Of a DNA stretch of 64,000 bases, positions 40,462-47,879 are shown piece by piece. Source of the DNA: Microbispora sp. NBC_01189 (lineage in GTDB: Bacteria; Actinomycetota; Actinomycetes; Streptosporangiales; Streptosporangiaceae); NCBI RefSeq assembly GCF_036010665.1, contig NZ_CP108581.1, positions 4,569,501 through 4,633,500 of the forward strand, in the 5' to 3' direction. Under the pieces are notes generated by a model. It saw only the letters and a list, made by a program, of their open reading frames with translations, was not told where the DNA came from and did not search any database. Both the position numbers and the translations under genes were made by a program. Position 1 is the stretch's first letter, and the number at the start of each line of letters is the position of its first letter.

Positions 40462-40485
40462 GCCGCGGAAACGGCGATTCCGGAG

Positions 40486-41568
40486 TCAGCTCCGGGCCCA
40501 GGCGAGGGCCTTCTCGACGGGTGAGATGCCGTACTCCGCCTCGACCGCGGCCGCGACCAGGTGGCAGAACAGGTACCGCTGCAGCGGCACGAGCCCGAGC
40601 CTGCCCAGGTGGGAGTAGAGCATGTTGACGGCCAGTCGGTGCCCGAGGAACCAGTCGGAGCCGAGCACCTCGGTTCTGTACCGCCCGGTGGCCAGCAGGA
40701 TCTCGTGGAAGTCGACGGTGTGCAGTTGCGGCATCCCGGGCTCGCGCGGGCCGGCGTCGAGGTCGATCCTCCTGTCGCGGATGAGGGGCGCGGCGAGGGC
40801 CTTCCCGCGCTCGACGTGGTCGAGCCACTCGCGCACGTGCGGCGGCGTCCGGCCCTCGTCCACCTCGGCCACCCGGCGGCGGACCAGGGCCCGCAACCGC
40901 CGCTCGTGCTGCCGGTACTTCGCCTCGAAGCCCGCCCGTACCCCGTCGCGGTCCACGCAGTAGGAGGCGAAGGCGTCGGCGTGGGAGCGGAAGGACATGT
41001 ATCCGCGCGAGATCGGCGGCACGCTGGTGTGCGCGAAGGCGATCATCAGGTCGAGGCTGAGCTGGAAGAGCGACAGGTCGCCCCGGCGGAAGGCGGCCAG
41101 CGTCCCGAACGCCATCCGGGTGCTCTCGGCGTAGAGGGAGTCGAGCAGGTCCACCAGAGCCTGACCGCCGAGCACGTGCCGGCGATCCTCGTACGGCTCG
41201 GTCTGGATGGTGTTGTCCGGGTACCACGGCCGGAGCGGGCCGAGCTCGCTCTCCCGCAGGGCCAGCGCCCGGTGGGCCTCCTCCAGGGCGGCCTCGTCCA
41301 GGACCGCGCGGGAGGGATGCTCGCCGAGGTAGCGGCCGAGGCGTTCGGTGGCCAGCGGCAGGATCTCGTCCTGCCAGACGTCGTCGGCGGCGCGGAGGTT
41401 CAGGCGGAGGTGCGGCCCGCGCCGCCAGTGGCGCACGAAGTACGGCTGCCGCGCCCGGTCGCCGAGTTCGGCCAGCAGCGGCCGGACGGCGTCGAGGATG
41501 AGCCCGTCCTTCTCCGTCGCGTAGTAACGCACCTGGATGCTGTGCCAGGGGGTCGTGGGGTCGTTCAC
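40486..41568 (-). CDS. Thiopeptide-type SpaB_C-domain protein, probable [4+2] pyridine synthase (TbtD-like)
   Basis: 360 residues; the GTG start 41568 overlaps the upstream stop (GTGA). The N-terminus has the family pattern: WHSIQVRYYATEKDGLI, then YFVRHWRRGPHLRLNLRA. TbtD-type enzymes of about this length join two dehydroalanines into a six-membered nitrogen ring and expel the leader peptide. It is the last gene of the RiPP operon after a TbtB-like and a second SpaB_C protein. Assigning D rather than C to this copy rests on length and order, and the two could be swapped. Confidence 0.7.
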   Translation of the reverse strand: MNDPTTPWHSIQVRYYATEKDGLILDAVRPLLAELGDRARQPYFVRHWRRGPHLRLNLRAADDVWQDEILPLATERLGRYLGEHPSRAVLDEAALEEAHRALALRESELGPLRPWYPDNTIQTEPYEDRRHVLGGQALVDLLDSLYAESTRMAFGTLAAFRRGDLSLFQLSLDLMIAFAHTSVPPISRGYMSFRSHADAFASYCVDRDGVRAGFEAKYRQHERRLRALVRRRVAEVDEGRTPPHVREWLDHVERGKALAAPLIRDRRIDLDAGPREPGMPQLHTVDFHEILLATGRYRTEVLGSDWFLGHRLAVNMLYSHLGRLGLVPLQRYLFCHLVAAAVEAEYGISPVEKALAWARS

Positions 41569-42533
41569 CGGTGCTCCAGTTCGCGGTAGGTGGTGCCGAC
41601 GAGGTGACGCAGGTGCGTCTCCTGCGCGCCCGGCAGCCCGAGCCGGTTGCACAGCAGGTGGACGCAGCGGAGGAGAAGGATCAGGACGTCGCCGCGCGCC
41701 CGGGTGACGCCGGGCGGCTGGAAGGAGGAGACGGCGGTTTCGGGGTGGAAGCGCCCGGCCGCCTGGAGGTCCAGGGCGCGCAGGCGCAGGGTGTCGATGG
41801 AGCGCCACCACGCGCCGAGGGGGTCGCGGGCGCCGGGGACCTCCGCGCCGGCGGCGATGCGGTGGCAGCGCAGAAGCTGCGCCGTGAGCGCGGCCCGTTC
41901 CCGGTCGTTCGAAGGCCGGTCATGCGGGTCCCAGCGTTCGCGGCTCGCTTCGAGCGCGCGGGCGAGGCGGGCGGGGTCCGGTTCCCAGGCCGCCAGGGCG
42001 AGCATCAGCGCGGCCGCGGCGAAACCCCGCCTGCGTCCGGGCTCGATCCCGCCGTCGAGCAGGGCGAGCGCGATGCGGCTGGAGTCGCAGAAGTGCCCTT
42101 CCACGGCGTCGATCGCCTCCGGCCCGCCGTACGTCGCGTACTCAGGGCGGTAGGCGACGGCCTCCACCGCGTCGCGGGTGCGCACCCGCCGGTCGTAGTG
42201 GGTGAGGTGCTCGGCCCCGGCGAACCGCTCGGCCGCGGCGGCGTACCCTGCGGCGTACTTCCCGGAGTCCCACGTGGCCTGATGCGGTGAGGGGTAGGCG
42301 GCCAGGTGCCGTTCCAGCGCGGCCCTCGCGCGTGCCTCCACCTCGCCGGTGCGGGCGGCCGGCCGGAGCCGCAGCCGCAGGTGCGGCCCGCCCTCCCAGT
42401 AACGCAGGAAGAAGTGGCGGACGAGCAGGCCGTCGGCGGTGAGCGAGCGCACCAGGCCGCCGACCGCCTGGGTGATCAGCCGGTCGGTGCCGCCCCGATG
42501 GAACGCGTGCAGCGAGATCCACGGCTCAGTCAT
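41565..42533 (-). CDS. Thiopeptide-type SpaB_C-domain protein, probable glutamate-elimination enzyme (TbtC-like)
   Basis: 322 residues. Starts WISLHAFHRGGTDRLI, then FFLRYWEGGPHLRLRLR, the signature of the lantibiotic-dehydratase C-terminal (elimination) domain found as a separate protein in thiopeptide clusters. It removes glutamate from glutamylated Ser/Thr to give dehydro amino acids. Its start overlaps the TbtB-like stop by 8 nt. Two separate SpaB_C proteins plus one LanB N-domain protein is the thiopeptide/pyritide arrangement, not that of a lanthipeptide. Confidence 0.72.
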   Translation of the reverse strand: MTEPWISLHAFHRGGTDRLITQAVGGLVRSLTADGLLVRHFFLRYWEGGPHLRLRLRPAARTGEVEARARAALERHLAAYPSPHQATWDSGKYAAGYAAAAERFAGAEHLTHYDRRVRTRDAVEAVAYRPEYATYGGPEAIDAVEGHFCDSSRIALALLDGGIEPGRRRGFAAAALMLALAAWEPDPARLARALEASRERWDPHDRPSNDRERAALTAQLLRCHRIAAGAEVPGARDPLGAWWRSIDTLRLRALDLQAAGRFHPETAVSSFQPPGVTRARGDVLILLLRCVHLLCNRLGLPGAQETHLRHLVGTTYRELEHR

Positions 42534-45027
42534 CGCCCACCTCCACGACGTACTCCATGACGTGGCCGCCGCCCAGCTCGGGCAGCACCTCCTGGAAGGC
42601 CGTGCAGGCGCCGTTGCCGCCGAGTTGCCGGTCGAAGCAGGCGACGAGGGAGGGATCGGCCAGATCCAGGAACGTCGGTTTGGCCAGCTGCGTCGTACGC
42701 ATCCGGTCCTGTCCCCAGGAGCCCGGGTCCAGGGAGAACACGAAGCAGCGGGACGGGATGCCGTGCGCGGCGAACCAGCGGGCCAGCGCCAGCAGGTGCC
42801 CGGCCTCGGAGGTTCCCGGACGGCGGCGCGGGACGTCCGCCGTGGCCGCGTACCAGGTGGCTCGGGCCACGACCACCCGGCCCAGCGTCACCCGCGGCCT
42901 GGCGGCGACCTCCTCCGGCGTCCGCCGCGGCGGCTCGGCGAACAACGCCCAGAGCGGCACGCCGATACCGGGCTGGTCGCCGAACAGGTGCAGCAGCAGC
43001 CGGGCCGTACGCGGCAGGAAGGGGGTGGCGAGCAGGCCCGCGTGGCGCATCAGCACGCGGCGGCCGTCCGCGGCGCGCACGAGTTCCAGTGCTCCGGCGG
43101 CGGGGTCGTGGCGGACGTCGAGGTCGCCCAGCGCGAGGCGCGCGGCGGGCGGACGGCCGGAGACCGCGCCCGGATAGCCCAGCTCGTGGGTGGTCGTGGG
43201 GGAGCGCAGGCTGATGTTGTGGCCGAACAGTCCGGTGATCTCGGCCTCGATCGGCAGACCGTCGCCGGGGCTGGGCTCGGCGGGACCGGGCTCGTGCGCC
43301 AGTCCCGCGATCGTCAGGAGGCGGTGGACGCGGCTGCGCGCGGTGCTGTGGCCGGCGGCCACGGCGTTGAGCACCAGCCGCACCGGCCCTGCTCCGTCGT
43401 CCGGCCCGGGCAGCACCTGCACGTAGCAGGCCAGCGAGCGCACCGGGCGCGCGCTTTCCGGCCGTCCCCGCAACCAGTCGGCCAGCGCCTCCGGCTCCTC
43501 GCGGAGCAGGTTCAGGGTCTGGTCGCGGTAACGCCGCAGGGCGGCCACCTCGGCGGGCACGGTGCCGGACATCGGGCCCGTCGGCTCCGCGGCCCCGCCG
43601 CGATAGAGCAGGGCGTGCAGCGCGTCGCCCTCGGGGGTGGCCAGTTGCCCGGCCAGCGTCCGATGAAACCGGGCGAACGGGACCCGCGCCCCCGTGCCGT
43701 ACGCCTGGACGAAGAGGCCGGCGGCGAGCAACCGGATCTCGTTGTCGCGCTGGAAGACCCCGGCCAGCGCGCGGATTAGGCGCAGGTCGTCGAGGGCCGC
43801 CCGCCATTCCGGTTCCCCCAGACGTACGGCGGGCGAGGCGAAGACGGCGTTGTCGTGAAAGAGGTTCTTGTCCGGAAGGCGTCCGTCGGGTGGCGACAGA
43901 CGGCGCAACGCGGTGCGCACCTCCTGCTGTAGGGCGAGCCCCTCGACCGGTCCCCGTACGCGGGGGTGGCGGGCCAGCGCCTGGCCGAACGCGGTGAGCG
44001 CGCCGGCGGCCGGGTGCGGCGCCAGCTGTTCCGCCAGATCGCCCAGATGGGAGAAGGACTGGTCGGCGACCGGCGGAAGCGTCTCCAGCACTCCGATGTC
44101 GACCAGGCGCGCGAGCGCATCGGGCGGCACGAGCCGCCGGGCCTCGCCGAGCGTGGTCCCGCCGGTCAGGGCGCGCAGGAGCGCGCGCAGCGGCTCAGTG
44201 GCGCGGACGCTCCGGTAGGCGTCCTCGGCCCGGGTCAGGTACCACAGGCGGCCGTCCTCCTCGGTCAGGCCGGCGTTCGGCCTGACCAGGAAGCGGGCCG
44301 CGAGGTCGCCGTCGGCTGCGGCCAGGTCGCCGAGCAGGCTGCGGACCAGCCACAGATCGGGCTCGGCGACGCTGCGCCAGTCCCATCCGCCCTCGACGGC
44401 GACCGGCTCGGGGCCCGGACCCCAGTGGCCGAGGCCCATCATGGTGAACGTGGAGTGCGGGCTGGTCTTGGCCACCACCCGCGACAGGTAGCGGCTCAGC
44501 CGCAGGTCCAGCCGGCGGGACGGCGCGGCCCCGGGGGAGCCCAGCCAGCGGGCCAGCGCCCCGGCCAGCGACGGGCTCGCCTGGACCAGGCCATGCGTGA
44601 AGACGTCGGCCGACGCCCACGTGCGGAGGCTGTGGTGCCGGTCCCGGCGCTCCTTCTCCAGGATCAGGGGCAGCCCGGCCTCCAGGCGTTCGCACGCGCG
44701 AAACCGCTCCGACCACCGCCGGACGCGCCGGTCCAGCTCGGCCGGCGTCTCGGCCGAGCTGGGGGGTACGGCGGGTGTCCGCCCGTTGTACAACGCCCGG
44801 CGGAGCGCGACCAGGCGGGACCTCGCCTGCCCGGAGGGGACGTCCGCGATGACCGGCTCAAGGGCGAGCGCGAGCGCGCGTCCCTCCGCGGCCAGGGCGT
44901 CCCGTTCCGTCAGGATCTCCTGTACGGCCTGCCAGGTCCGGTCACACCTCAGGTCGTCGAGGGCCGCCCCGGGGAGGGCGGCGACCCTGACCACCACGGT
45001 CTCCGGGCGCTGTGGGCGGATCGCCAT
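42526..45027 (-). CDS. LanB N-terminal-domain protein, tRNA-dependent Ser/Thr glutamylating enzyme (TbtB-like)
   Basis: 833 residues. Lantibiotic-dehydratase N-domain motifs include YLSRVVAKTSPHSTFTMMG (the usual KTSPxST region, about residues 185-205) and, toward the end, YPGAVSGRPPAARLALGDLDV. It lacks an elimination domain, supplied by the next gene. Family role: transfer Glu from glutamyl-tRNA onto Ser/Thr of the precursor. It starts 13 nt after the precursor stop. No lanthionine cyclase, no YcaO and no Fe-S methylase gene is seen. A PEARL (peptide aminoacyl-tRNA ligase) is the main alternative, but those are not expected with a C/D pair. Confidence 0.8.
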   Translation of the reverse strand: MAIRPQRPETVVVRVAALPGAALDDLRCDRTWQAVQEILTERDALAAEGRALALALEPVIADVPSGQARSRLVALRRALYNGRTPAVPPSSAETPAELDRRVRRWSERFRACERLEAGLPLILEKERRDRHHSLRTWASADVFTHGLVQASPSLAGALARWLGSPGAAPSRRLDLRLSRYLSRVVAKTSPHSTFTMMGLGHWGPGPEPVAVEGGWDWRSVAEPDLWLVRSLLGDLAAADGDLAARFLVRPNAGLTEEDGRLWYLTRAEDAYRSVRATEPLRALLRALTGGTTLGEARRLVPPDALARLVDIGVLETLPPVADQSFSHLGDLAEQLAPHPAAGALTAFGQALARHPRVRGPVEGLALQQEVRTALRRLSPPDGRLPDKNLFHDNAVFASPAVRLGEPEWRAALDDLRLIRALAGVFQRDNEIRLLAAGLFVQAYGTGARVPFARFHRTLAGQLATPEGDALHALLYRGGAAEPTGPMSGTVPAEVAALRRYRDQTLNLLREEPEALADWLRGRPESARPVRSLACYVQVLPGPDDGAGPVRLVLNAVAAGHSTARSRVHRLLTIAGLAHEPGPAEPSPGDGLPIEAEITGLFGHNISLRSPTTTHELGYPGAVSGRPPAARLALGDLDVRHDPAAGALELVRAADGRRVLMRHAGLLATPFLPRTARLLLHLFGDQPGIGVPLWALFAEPPRRTPEEVAARPRVTLGRVVVARATWYAATADVPRRRPGTSEAGHLLALARWFAAHGIPSRCFVFSLDPGSWGQDRMRTTQLAKPTFLDLADPSLVACFDRQLGGNGACTAFQEVLPELGGGHVMEYVVEVGDD

Positions 45028-45040
45028 GCGGGGCGGCGCG

Positions 45041-45232
45041 CTAGACGAGCCAGCTCTTCCCGGAGGTCCACGTTCCCGAGGCGCCGACCTCGGTGTTGCC
45101 CAGTCCCATGGTCACCGCCTCGACGAGCACCTCGGAGCCGGGAAGCTCCACGGTGGCGACGTCCAGCGAGTCCAGGTCCAGCGATTCCAGGTCCAGCGCG
45201 TCCAGGTTGAGGGCTTCTTCGTGCGGGGCCAT
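45041..45232 (-). CDS. RiPP precursor peptide, pyritide/thiopeptide-like
   Basis: 63 residues from ATG 45232, ribosome site GGGAGG 4 nt away. The leader has acidic Leu-Asp repeats (LDALDLESLDLDSLDV) and ends NTEVGA, the same TEVGA ending as the thiomuracin precursor TbtA, where cleavage gives a core starting with Ser. The predicted core is SGTWTSGKSWLV: Ser at positions 1, 6 and 9, Thr at 3 and 5, and no Cys. A pyridine from Ser1 plus Ser6 or Ser9 would leave a small macrocycle with a short Trp-bearing tail. It is followed by the modifying enzymes on the same strand. Confidence 0.85.
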   Translation of the reverse strand: MAPHEEALNLDALDLESLDLDSLDVATVELPGSEVLVEAVTMGLGNTEVGASGTWTSGKSWLV

Positions 45233-45659
45233 GCTGCCTCCCGTTTCCGGTGGGGTACGGCGCGTGCCGCGATACTCTGCCAACGAAGCACGGAAGGGTC
45301 CATTAGTCCATAATTCTCCATAAATAGGGCAATGCGGACATTCAATCGAACTGGATGGACCCAGCCGATTTCGTCGCGAAATGCCGACGCGGCCCCCGCC
45401 AGTGGGGACCTGACGGTAAGCCGCCGGCATCGGGGTCGGCACCCGCGACGGCGCGGAGGCGGCGCGCGCATGCCGCGATCGTGGTTGGCCCCGAGCGGCC
45501 CGACGTGCCCCGACCGCCGGAGCGACCACCGAGACGTCTTCCCCTAGCGGACTCTCTCGCGTAGCGCGGCAGGAAAGCGGATTCGCCATCAAGGAGAATC
45601 GGCGTCCGGTAGCGTAATCGCGTCAGGTACCGCCGGACGGGCGGGAACGGAACCTTCGG
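45233..45659. other. Gene-free region upstream of the RiPP precursor
   Basis: No supported gene. On the plus strand TCCAT repeats at 45299, 45307 and 45317 lie in an AT-rich patch (CATAATTCTCCATAAATAGG) that stands out from the GC-rich surroundings and probably contains the promoter of the precursor operon. No GAGA-type SARP boxes are seen. Confidence 0.5.
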
Positions 45660-45765
45660 GTTCGAAAGCCTGTGGAGACCCGGTAAGACCACTTCGGTGG
45701 CGCAGGTCGCTGAAGCAGGAAGCCACAGAAGTGCCGCACGCGCGGCACAGGCTGGATCTCCGGTA
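45660..45765 (+). ncRNA. Orphan TnpB right end / omega-RNA-like scar
   Basis: Contains GGAGACCCGGTAAGACC, then GGTCGCTGAAGCAGGAAGCC, then a hairpin GTGCCGC-ACGC-GCGGCAC and GGATCTCCGG. GTAAGACC and TGAAxCAGGAAGCC are shared with the right end after the intact tnpB at 16158-16280. No tnpB precedes it, so it is a deletion scar or a stand-alone guide-type RNA gene. Confidence 0.5.
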
Positions 45766-45786
45766 TTCATTTCATGCCGGAGAGCG

Positions 45787-46055
45787 CGTCAAAGCGGTCA
45801 CCTGCTCGCCGAGCACCTGGGGATAAGCCTCCGCCGCATCCTCGTCGGCTCTGCGCTCGGCGTGGCGGCGGGGCTCGTCCTAGGCACCGCGCCGTGGATC
45901 CGTCTCGTGGCCGAGCCGGTGGTGAGCTTCGTACGGGCGCTGCCTCCGCTGGCCTACTGCAGCCTGCTGATCATCTGGTTCGGCATCGACGAGATACCCA
46001 AGCTGTGGCTGCTTGCCATCGCCGCGCTTCCGCCGGTCGCCGAGCCCACCAGACG
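45787..46055 (+). pseudogene. Fragment of an ABC permease (TauC/SsuC type)
   Basis: About 90 residues match the N-terminal half of sulfonate/nitrate-type permeases: HLGISLRRILVGSALGVAAG, VSFVRALPPLAYCSLLIIWF, GIDEIPKLWLLAIAALPPV. The start, the EAA loop and the rest are missing, and the frame ends in a Leu-Ser-Ser-Gly repeat. It is a remnant directly behind the TnpB-type scar. Confidence 0.7.
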
Positions 46056-46119
46056 CCCACCGGGTGATGCACCGGATCACCCTGCGCGGCGACCGTCCCT
46101 TCGGCCCCGGACGACGTCC

Positions 46120-46164
46120 CTGAGCTCAGGCCTGAGTTCGGGCCTGAGTTCGGGCTGAGCTCAG
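46120..46164. terminator. Paired CTGAGCTCAG palindromes
   Basis: CTGAGCTCAG occurs at 46120-46129 and 46155-46164 with CCTGAGTTCGGG repeats between. The two can pair into a 10-bp stem at the end of the NRPS operon; the right copy contains the last stop codon of that operon. Plausible terminator. Confidence 0.45.
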
Positions 46165-47879
46165 TACATGCGCGGCGGCGCGGGGTCCGTGCGCACGTGC
46201 AGCAGATGCGGCCGGTCGTCGGCGAGCGCGGCTGCGAGCGCGCTCTTCAGCGCGGCGGGCTCGGCGACGTACCGTGCCGCGCAGCCCATTCCCTGGGCCA
46301 GCGCGACGAAGTCGAGCCCGCCGAGGTCCACACCGGGGATGCCCGTGCCGCCTGCCGCCTCGCCGAGCAGCCGCACCGCGGCGTACCGCGTGTTGTCCAG
46401 GATCACGAAGGTCACCGGCGTCCGCTCGCGCGCCGCGGTCCACAGGGCCTGGATGCCGAACATGGCCGACCCGTCGCCGAGCACCGCGACGACCCTGCGG
46501 CCCGGCCTGGCCAGCGCGGCGCCGACCGCGGCCGGGAGCCCGTAGCCGAGCGCGCCGCTCGCGGTGGTGAGAAACCCCGTGTCGGTCGCGGTGATCGGCA
46601 GGTGGTCGTGCAGCACGCTGCGGTGGCTGGGCGTCTCCTCCACCACGATCGCGTCGGCGGGCAGCAGCTCGGCGAGCGTGGCGTAGACCTCCGCCGCGCT
46701 GATCATCCCGTCCGCCGGTCCCGCCGGCCGGGCGAGGACGGGCGGGGCCGCCCTGCCGACCCCCTTGCCGACCCCCCTGCCGACCGCCCTGCCGGGCACG
46801 CGCAGCGGACGGCCCGGCAGTCCGTTCGGGCCCCCGTTCACCGCTTCGTTCGCCGCTCCGTTCGCGGCACTGTTCGCGGAACGGTCGAGGGCTTCGTCCA
46901 GGGCCTGCAGGGCGAGCCGCGGCGTCGCCCTGATGCCGGGGCCCGTGTCCGCCCTGGCGAGCACCTGCTCGTCGTCGCTGACCACGAACAGCGGGGGCAG
47001 CGGGACCTCGGGCTCGCCCCGGTAGACGTGGTAGGTGAAGGCCGGGGCGCCGATCACCACGACCAGGTCGTGCCGGGCCAGCGCCGCGGCGGTGGCGCGT
47101 TTCTCCGCGTCCAGGAAGCCCAGGAAGAGTGGATGGTCCTCGGGGAAGGAGCACCGGGGCGAGACCGGCGCGGCCCAGACGCCCGCCCCGACGCGTTCGG
47201 CGAGGGCGACGAGGTCGTCGACCGCGCCGTCCGCGTCCACGCCGGGTCCGGCCACGATGCCCGGCCGCGCGCTGCCGTGCAGGGCCTCGGCCAGCGCCGC
47301 GAGGGCGGCGGGGTCGGGGGCGAAGCCGGGGATCGCCGGACGTGCCGCGACCGGCGATCCCGCCTCCGCGTCCCAGTCGTCCGCCGGGACGGAGACGAAG
47401 ACCGGGCCTCGCGGAGCCTGGGACGCCACGTGGTAGGCGCGGGCGATCGCCGCGGGCACGTCCTGCGCCCGGGCGGGCTCGCAACTCCACTTGACGTACG
47501 GCCGGGGGAAGGCCGTGGCGTCGGTGGCGCCGAGGAAGGGGTCGTCGCGCAGCAGCGTCCTGCTCTGCTGGCCGGCCATCACGATCAGCGGGGCGTGGCC
47601 GCGCGCGGCGTTGAACACCTGCCCGAGGCCGTGGCCGAGGCCGCCCGCGCTGTGCAGGTTCACCAGCACCGGCCGCCTGGTGGCCTGGGCGTAGCCGTCG
47701 GCCATGGCGACGACCACCGATTCGTGCAGCCCGAGCACATAGCGGAAATCGTCCGGCCAGTCGGTGAGAAATGCGATCTCGGTGGTTCCGGGATTTCCGA
47801 AAACGGTGGTGAGGCCGAGTTGCCGGAGCAGCCGGCGGGTGGCGTCCCGGACCGTCCTGTCGCTCGCGATCGAATGCAC
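46161..47879 (-). CDS. ThDP-dependent decarboxylase, benzoylformate-decarboxylase-like
   Basis: 572 residues from GTG 47879 (GGAGG 8 nt upstream). Glu for ThDP activation is in GLHESVVVAMADGYAQ (about 50); NLHSAGGLGHGLGQ carries a His at the place of the benzoylformate decarboxylase active-site His70; the ThDP motif GDGSAMFGIQALWTAA runs to VILDN (about 468-495). A low-complexity linker (SANSAANGAANEAVNGG and a GVGKGVGR run) splits the middle. Likely decarboxylates an aryl-2-oxo acid or performs carboligation. Last gene of the NRPS operon, after a TyrA-like gene that would make an arylpyruvate. Acetolactate synthase is less likely. Confidence 0.78.
   Translation of the reverse strand: MHSIASDRTVRDATRRLLRQLGLTTVFGNPGTTEIAFLTDWPDDFRYVLGLHESVVVAMADGYAQATRRPVLVNLHSAGGLGHGLGQVFNAARGHAPLIVMAGQQSRTLLRDDPFLGATDATAFPRPYVKWSCEPARAQDVPAAIARAYHVASQAPRGPVFVSVPADDWDAEAGSPVAARPAIPGFAPDPAALAALAEALHGSARPGIVAGPGVDADGAVDDLVALAERVGAGVWAAPVSPRCSFPEDHPLFLGFLDAEKRATAAALARHDLVVVIGAPAFTYHVYRGEPEVPLPPLFVVSDDEQVLARADTGPGIRATPRLALQALDEALDRSANSAANGAANEAVNGGPNGLPGRPLRVPGRAVGRGVGKGVGRAAPPVLARPAGPADGMISAAEVYATLAELLPADAIVVEETPSHRSVLHDHLPITATDTGFLTTASGALGYGLPAAVGAALARPGRRVVAVLGDGSAMFGIQALWTAARERTPVTFVILDNTRYAAVRLLGEAAGGTGIPGVDLGGLDFVALAQGMGCAARYVAEPAALKSALAAALADDRPHLLHVRTDPAPPRMY

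Follow-up and report, generated by a model that had tools for sequence, protein, structure and literature searches.

A probable pyritide cassette in Microbispora sp. NBC_01189, predicted to encode a larger ring than those of the characterised systems

The Tbt (thiomuracin) and Pbt (GE2270) systems combine a split LanB pair with a D enzyme, and their cores are Cys-rich and azole-bearing. To our knowledge, only two natural pyritides (A1 and A2) have been characterised, both from one strain. In PMC9247985, thiopeptides are described as azole-bearing in general, and the mro pathway of Micromonospora rosaria (MroA1, MroA2, MroB, MroC and MroD) as working without azoles. There, MroBCD was reconstituted; MroA1 is given as ...GLGNTEVGA-SGWLGSWVI (Table 1 of that paper). 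B and D bind the leader and the C-terminal tripeptide, in which Trp to Tyr/Phe and Ile to Leu/Val replacements are tolerated, and with the Mro enzymes it is this tripeptide that guides where the second dehydration takes place. Ring sizes from 14 to 68 atoms were obtained. Of 56 ring variants, every one in which Lys or Arg preceded the second Ser cyclised. Part of a review (PMC10880069) uses the word pyritide more broadly, thiopeptides included. Here we describe a set of four genes, A to D, in a 64-kb stretch ("the window", contig positions 4569501-4633500) of the complete 7.37-Mb genome of Microbispora sp. NBC_01189. Their product is very probably a new pyritide, and its predicted ring exceeds those of the characterised relatives in size.

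The original prediction placed an operon at window positions 40486..45232, with a precursor followed on the same strand by one LanB N-domain protein and two SpaB_C proteins. The coordinates proved exact and the gene content was confirmed. All four reading frames are intact, with a 13-bp gap between A and B and overlaps of 8 bp (B/C) and 4 bp (C/D). The set resembles the mro pathway in its genes A to D, the leader end GLGNTEVGA, the Ser1-Gly2 start and Ser-Trp-hydrophobic-hydrophobic end of the core, the lack of a YcaO match nearby and the placement of D on one branch with MroD. Judged by these sequence features, the mro system is its closest characterised relative, a point that goes beyond the earlier note. 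It differs from mro in having one precursor instead of two, a 12-residue core with an internal Thr-Ser, and a predicted ring of 23 atoms versus 14 and 17. Identity to the Micromonospora rosaria proteins is 54% for D, about 49-52% for C and about 39-41% for B.

The nine residues of the leader end are identical in the window precursor and MroA1. The core, SGTWTSGKSWLV, starts with Ser-Gly and ends with Ser-Trp-Leu-Val, and Lys8 precedes Ser9. Its translation bears out the claim that Ser stands at positions 1, 6 and 9 and that Cys is absent; as in pyritide precursors, there is a Ser1 and a Ser before the C-terminal Trp tripeptide. Likeness to the Tbt/Pbt precursors is low: the window precursor scores 24.8 bits against NF033399 (thiomuracin/GE37468-type leader), under the cut-off of 29, and its leader shows only a weak, non-significant match to PbtA in 8t19 (E 0.29). 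Within the leader, a 15-base tandem repeat (45161-45207, 3.1 copies) encodes the LDxLD part, and leader length differs among relatives.

The N- and C-terminal LanB functions reside on separate proteins, each scoring over its Pfam cut-off (B, Lant_dehydr_N, 91.2 bits; C, Lant_dehydr_C, 129.9; D, Lant_dehydr_C, 100.1), an arrangement that predicts glutamylation and elimination by distinct enzymes. The Lant_dehydr_C domains of C and D are the only two found in the whole genome. The best solved relative of B is 6ec7 (E 5.1e-70, 240 bits, residues 10-818), an entry named lantibiotic dehydratase domain protein, which we take to be TbtB. With the profile NF045556, the NCBIfam equivalog of TbtD/PbtD pyridine synthases (cut-off 325), the downstream SpaB_C copy, D, scores 402.6 bits and C 53.9. 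D aligns with the PbtD and TbtD structures over nearly its full length. Its Tyr318 aligns to a PbtD residue that is Tyr in 5w98, Phe in 8ejz and Ala in 8ejy; according to the review PMC10880069, aromatisation by such an enzyme is assisted by a Tyr. At the equivalent site, D has Tyr in 10/10 pyritide-type loci and C has His in 10/10. The earlier note would have been overturned had both SpaB_C copies been parts of lanthipeptide dehydratases: D is clearly not such a part, as seen from NF045556 and the Tyr site, and C resembles an eliminase, in keeping with a TbtC/MroC counterpart.

We therefore consider it highly likely that the four genes form a pyritide cassette, in which B, C and D act on Ser1 and Ser9 to give a 23-membered pyridine macrocycle. 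The chemical steps, the choice of Ser9 and the mass are all carried over from the mro system, and we infer them by analogy. With Glu-tRNA, B would glutamylate the precursor at Ser1 and Ser9, C would eliminate glutamate to leave two dehydroalanines, and D would join these by a formal [4+2] cycloaddition, with loss of water and expulsion of the leader as a carboxamide. The predicted product from SGTWTSGKSWLV is a 23-membered macrocycle closed by a Ser1-Ser9 pyridine with an exocyclic Trp-Leu-Val tail. Its predicted [M+H]+, obtained by subtracting three waters and one ammonia from the core, is 1237.600, or 1219.59 with Ser6 also dehydrated. Applied to pyritide A1, this calculation yields 933.462, which agrees with the dichloro pyritide A1 formula published in PMC12518702. 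Our confidence that the locus adds a member to the pyritide class is high for the genes, and the molecule is a prediction by analogy. The earlier reading of a pyridine-closed macrocycle devoid of thiazoles, from a very small known class, is likewise supported by gene content, the family of D, its place on the MroD branch, the occurrence of leader motif and D in the same genomes and the lack of a nearby YcaO.

The cassette recurs. A search of 341 family genomes (query P0002) gave 107 genomes with a match at E 0.001. Nine of these, the window's genome included, have a D at least 55% identical over most of its length, and G241 holds a fragment. The earlier note had proposed searching for precursors with the same leader end: the pattern GLGNTE[V/I]GA occurs in 9/338 family genomes, once in each, and these are the same nine; the reversed pattern occurs in none. 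A contig profile search with an alignment of the nine D proteins found 60 relatives, 7 of them with pyritide-type precursors. Among the seven is the Micromonospora rosaria cluster (L086), recovered with two precursors, one of which has the MroA1 core. G137 and G219 are two more pyritide-type loci. In a D tree of 62 rows (59 of the 60 loci, the window, G137 and G219), the ten D proteins with pyritide cores, MroD among them, lie on one side of a single branch (support 100/99, 100% of 200 bootstrap trees), with a long-branch warning that includes the Micromonospora rosaria D. Among 396 genomes drawn from the phylum, only the window's own passes E 1e-60, and plasmids hold only distant D relatives (3/72,556 records). 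No Microbispora pyritide is among the literature matches listed, and the natural variants tabulated in the supplement of PMC9247985 may include this one.

Precursor, B, C and D are thus found together in nine further genomes. In a simple count over six pairs per gene from four genomes, the ratio of nonsynonymous to synonymous substitution rates (dN/dS) is 0.41-0.56 for B, 0.40-0.54 for C and 0.28-0.36 for D; the short precursor gives 0.36-0.69, with the Nonomuraea spiralis start set crudely. This recurrence, the leader-pattern count with its reversed control and the dN/dS of 0.28-0.56 argue that the set is not a chance assembly. Between the window and Microbispora amethystogenes, the neighbouring genes DegT and LysX have values of 0.09 and 0.15, and a thiamine pyrophosphate (TPP) enzyme 0.43 with an over-long frame. 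The cassette thus looks selected, more loosely than DegT and LysX.

Microbispora amethystogenes, Microbispora oryzae, Nonomuraea spiralis, Sphaerisporangium melleum, Herbidospora mongoliensis, Herbidospora yilanensis, G137 and G219 have the same genes and leader motif. Their cores, 10-12 residues long, differ in ring sequence, and that of Nonomuraea spiralis contains a Cys. From the published 14- and 17-membered rings we infer a ring-size rule of 3n-4, which predicts 23 for SGTWTSGKSWLV (window), SGAWTSRTSWLV and SGTWTSSKSWLV; 20 for SGCTSGKSWLI, SGITGRTSWLI and SGLTGRTSWLI; 17 for SGIARTSWLI, SGIGRTSWLI, SGYMRTSWVV and SGFFGRSWLI; and 14 for SGWLGSWVI. The final Ser stands directly before Trp in 11/11 cores. 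In all nine cores compared by codon (G137 and G219 were left out), it is AGC followed by TGG, whereas an internal Ser after Thr is TCN in all 4 cores that have one. Ser9 thus looks homologous to the ring-closing Ser, and we regard it as the most likely ring-closing residue of the window core, a point not made in the earlier note.

A smaller, 14-membered ring joining Ser1 to Ser6, like that of pyritide A1 and with a Gly-Lys-Ser-Trp-Leu-Val tail, would fit the conservation of Thr-Ser at positions 5-6 in 4/4 Microbispora/Nonomuraea members, whose synonymous Ser codons vary while positions 3, 7 and 8 change. We give this ring little chance, since the Mro tripeptide guides the second dehydration (PMC9247985) and the last Ser of every core directly precedes Trp. 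The kept Thr-Ser hints at a role, although the four members are close kin. One speculative idea, which we consider improbable, is that in this subgroup the internal Thr-Ser is also modified, placing a third reactive dehydro residue in a 20-23-membered ring and yielding electrophilic or bicyclic pyritides that spread between clusters as a 4.9-kb cassette; the Nonomuraea spiralis Cys could then close a second, thioether ring. That core (SGCTSGKSWLI, L082:6428 region) lies in a cassette with no YcaO match nearby, and a thioether between its Cys and a dehydro residue is conceivable. Whether the cassette works at all must also be considered: a transposon remnant at its edge, a decayed C-D remnant in G241 and dN/dS looser than in DegT and LysX would suit an inactive or decaying insertion, which we hold to be unlikely given four intact frames and the fact that none of the six pairs for B, for C or for D reaches a dN/dS of 0.6.

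The peptide pathway could also join with the surrounding genes of an amino-group-carrier protein (AmCP) and nonribosomal peptide synthetase (NRPS) cluster to make one hybrid molecule. The two lie on the same strand, with cluster genes on both sides, and the arrangement is kept in two species, that of the window and Microbispora amethystogenes. Each part, however, occurs without the other: the sister genome G078 has the AmCP/NRPS cluster but neither D nor the leader motif, and for the loci of Microbispora oryzae, Nonomuraea spiralis, G137, G219, G217, G044 and G041 the matches listed at a minimum of 35% identity, over the 26-40 kb in which the cassette lies, include none of the window's AmCP/NRPS genes (G041 has a SARP-type match only). 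A hybrid product is therefore not our leading reading, and we rate it as very unlikely. It is scarcely credible that B is a peptide-aminoacyl-tRNA ligase instead of a dehydratase, a possibility raised with the original prediction, because 6ec7 is its best solved relative over residues 10-818 and because C and D accompany B in ten loci.

A true thiopeptide with azoles made by a distant YcaO is about as implausible. The genome does contain one YcaO (PF02624 over all 7.37 Mb), and the leader is a relative of the thiomuracin/GE37468 type that scores below the NF033399 cut-off. That YcaO lies 1.77 Mb from D, the core has no Cys, the ten loci have no YcaO match in the DNA examined, and mro needs no azoles (PMC9247985); we rejected azole formation in trans for the first two reasons. 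The earlier claim that azole genes are missing thus stands for YcaO, and the genes that might have lain just outside the window are not there as far as YcaO is concerned. For the E1-like and dehydrogenase families, none was found among 24 selected window open reading frames (Pfam), and no genome-wide search was made. A home-made iterated YcaO profile had no match in the DNA examined of the window, the seven named pyritide loci, G137 or G219; among 53 non-pyritide loci, it matched 40 at E <=1e-100 and 2 weakly (L109, L138), leaving 11 without a match. This profile over-calls, as it drifted over three rounds and matched in overlapping frames, and the 11 loci show that a missing YcaO within 10 kb does not alone define a pyritide. 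These are L090, L094, L099, L101, L103, L104, L113, L121, L123, L135 and L139, D relatives with no pyritide core found and no YcaO in the DNA examined. Several are on short contigs, the L101 core bears Cys and L139 is a short match.

Several points weigh against a 23-membered Ser1-Ser9 pyritide from this cassette. Arg before the second Ser rescued only 6/11 poor Mro substrates in PMC9247985, so Lys8 is no guarantee of cyclisation. Identity to Micromonospora rosaria is low for B and C, and site choice may differ. The window core contains a third Ser and two Thr, not in the mro cores, and the dN/dS of the cassette is laxer than that of DegT and LysX beside it. Finally, no exporter or immunity gene was found common to the ten loci. 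In a scan of frames of at least 90 codons with high third-position GC content over 18-40 kb per locus, no gene beyond precursor, B, C and D occurred in more than 5/10. Apart from B, C and D, the only frames present in at least 6/10 were antisense to these three genes; the next-largest group comprised regulators at scattered places (5/10), and the rest occurred in 3 or 4. That nothing but the cassette was found in common makes the role of pyritides, and their route out of the cell, a more pressing question.

The locus and its relatives form a natural series of predicted rings of 14, 17, 20 and 23 atoms, with both recognition ends constant and the sequence between them variable, which parallels what has been engineered with MroBCD. 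The locus contributes new enzymes for building macrocycle libraries and makes it possible to study enzyme choice among three serines.

Table 1. Coordinates (window numbering) of the cassette and of features at its edges.
Feature	Position	Strand	Remarks
Precursor gene A	45232-45041	minus	63 aa; leader end ...MGLGNTEVGA, core SGTWTSGKSWLV (translation; motif and core type also in 9 other genomes)
B, LanB N-terminal (predicted glutamylation) protein	45027-42526	minus	833 aa; Pfam Lant_dehydr_N; PDB 6ec7
C, predicted split glutamate-elimination-type protein	42533-41565	minus	322 aa; Lant_dehydr_C; NF045556 below cut-off; His at the Tyr site of D
D, predicted pyridine synthase ([4+2] macrocyclase)	41568-40486	minus	360 aa, GTG start; NF045556; PbtD/TbtD structures; MroD branch
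Upstream stretch, possible promoter region	45233-45341	minus	common to window and Microbispora oryzae (blastn); four upstream regions aligned
Whole cassette	40485-45341		sole block (90.9%) in common with 58 kb examined of Microbispora oryzae
TnpB (IS605 OrfB) 3'-end match, 75.9%	45665-45792		gene intact at this edge in Microbispora amethystogenes (L035:4999-6195)
ABC (ATP-binding cassette) permease gene scrap, 88%	45778-46050		gene stands at this place in sister genome G078

The four genes are a 4.86-kb cassette that occurs in varied surroundings, an observation new in this analysis. In the window, it lies inside the AmCP/NRPS cluster, whose genes flank it to either side on the same strand. 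They encode a LysW-like protein with the ending EDFGE, LysX, an amino-acid kinase, parts of a transketolase, a DegT aminotransferase, the TPP enzyme and an AMP-binding protein; there are also NRPS genes, of which one has a terminal reductase-type domain. This cluster, presumably vazabitide-like, spans 32568-63102. A LysX at least 96% identical is found in 3/15 same-genus genomes (the window, Microbispora amethystogenes and G078). Microbispora amethystogenes NBRC 101907 (G065) keeps the whole arrangement, cassette included, and Microbispora oryzae RL4-1S (G071) has only the cassette block in common with the window (blocks of at least 80 bases), within other surroundings. G078 is colinear with the window; the match ends at 40462, restarts at 45778 and is interrupted again at 46050/46052. 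At the two breaks, G078 carries DNA that the window lacks, about 2.9 and 3.1 kb long, with genes for an M48-type peptidase, an ABC permease, a substrate-binding protein, an ABC ATPase and a TauD-family dioxygenase, and the 273 bases left in the window between the breaks are a scrap of its permease gene. The simplest history would be that the cassette replaced a transporter segment, the direction being suggested by the permease scrap that remains.

At L050:18427-19182 of G241, residues 17-93 of C and then 273-359 of D are matched in one frame, which probably marks a deleted pyritide cassette. The 64-kb window contains no tRNA, Rfam gave no match at its gathering threshold over 44900-46200, and a promoter and terminator consensus scan found neither a sigma-70 consensus site upstream of the cassette nor a terminator. 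An upstream block at about 45233-45330, with TTGGCAGAGT, is common to four relatives.
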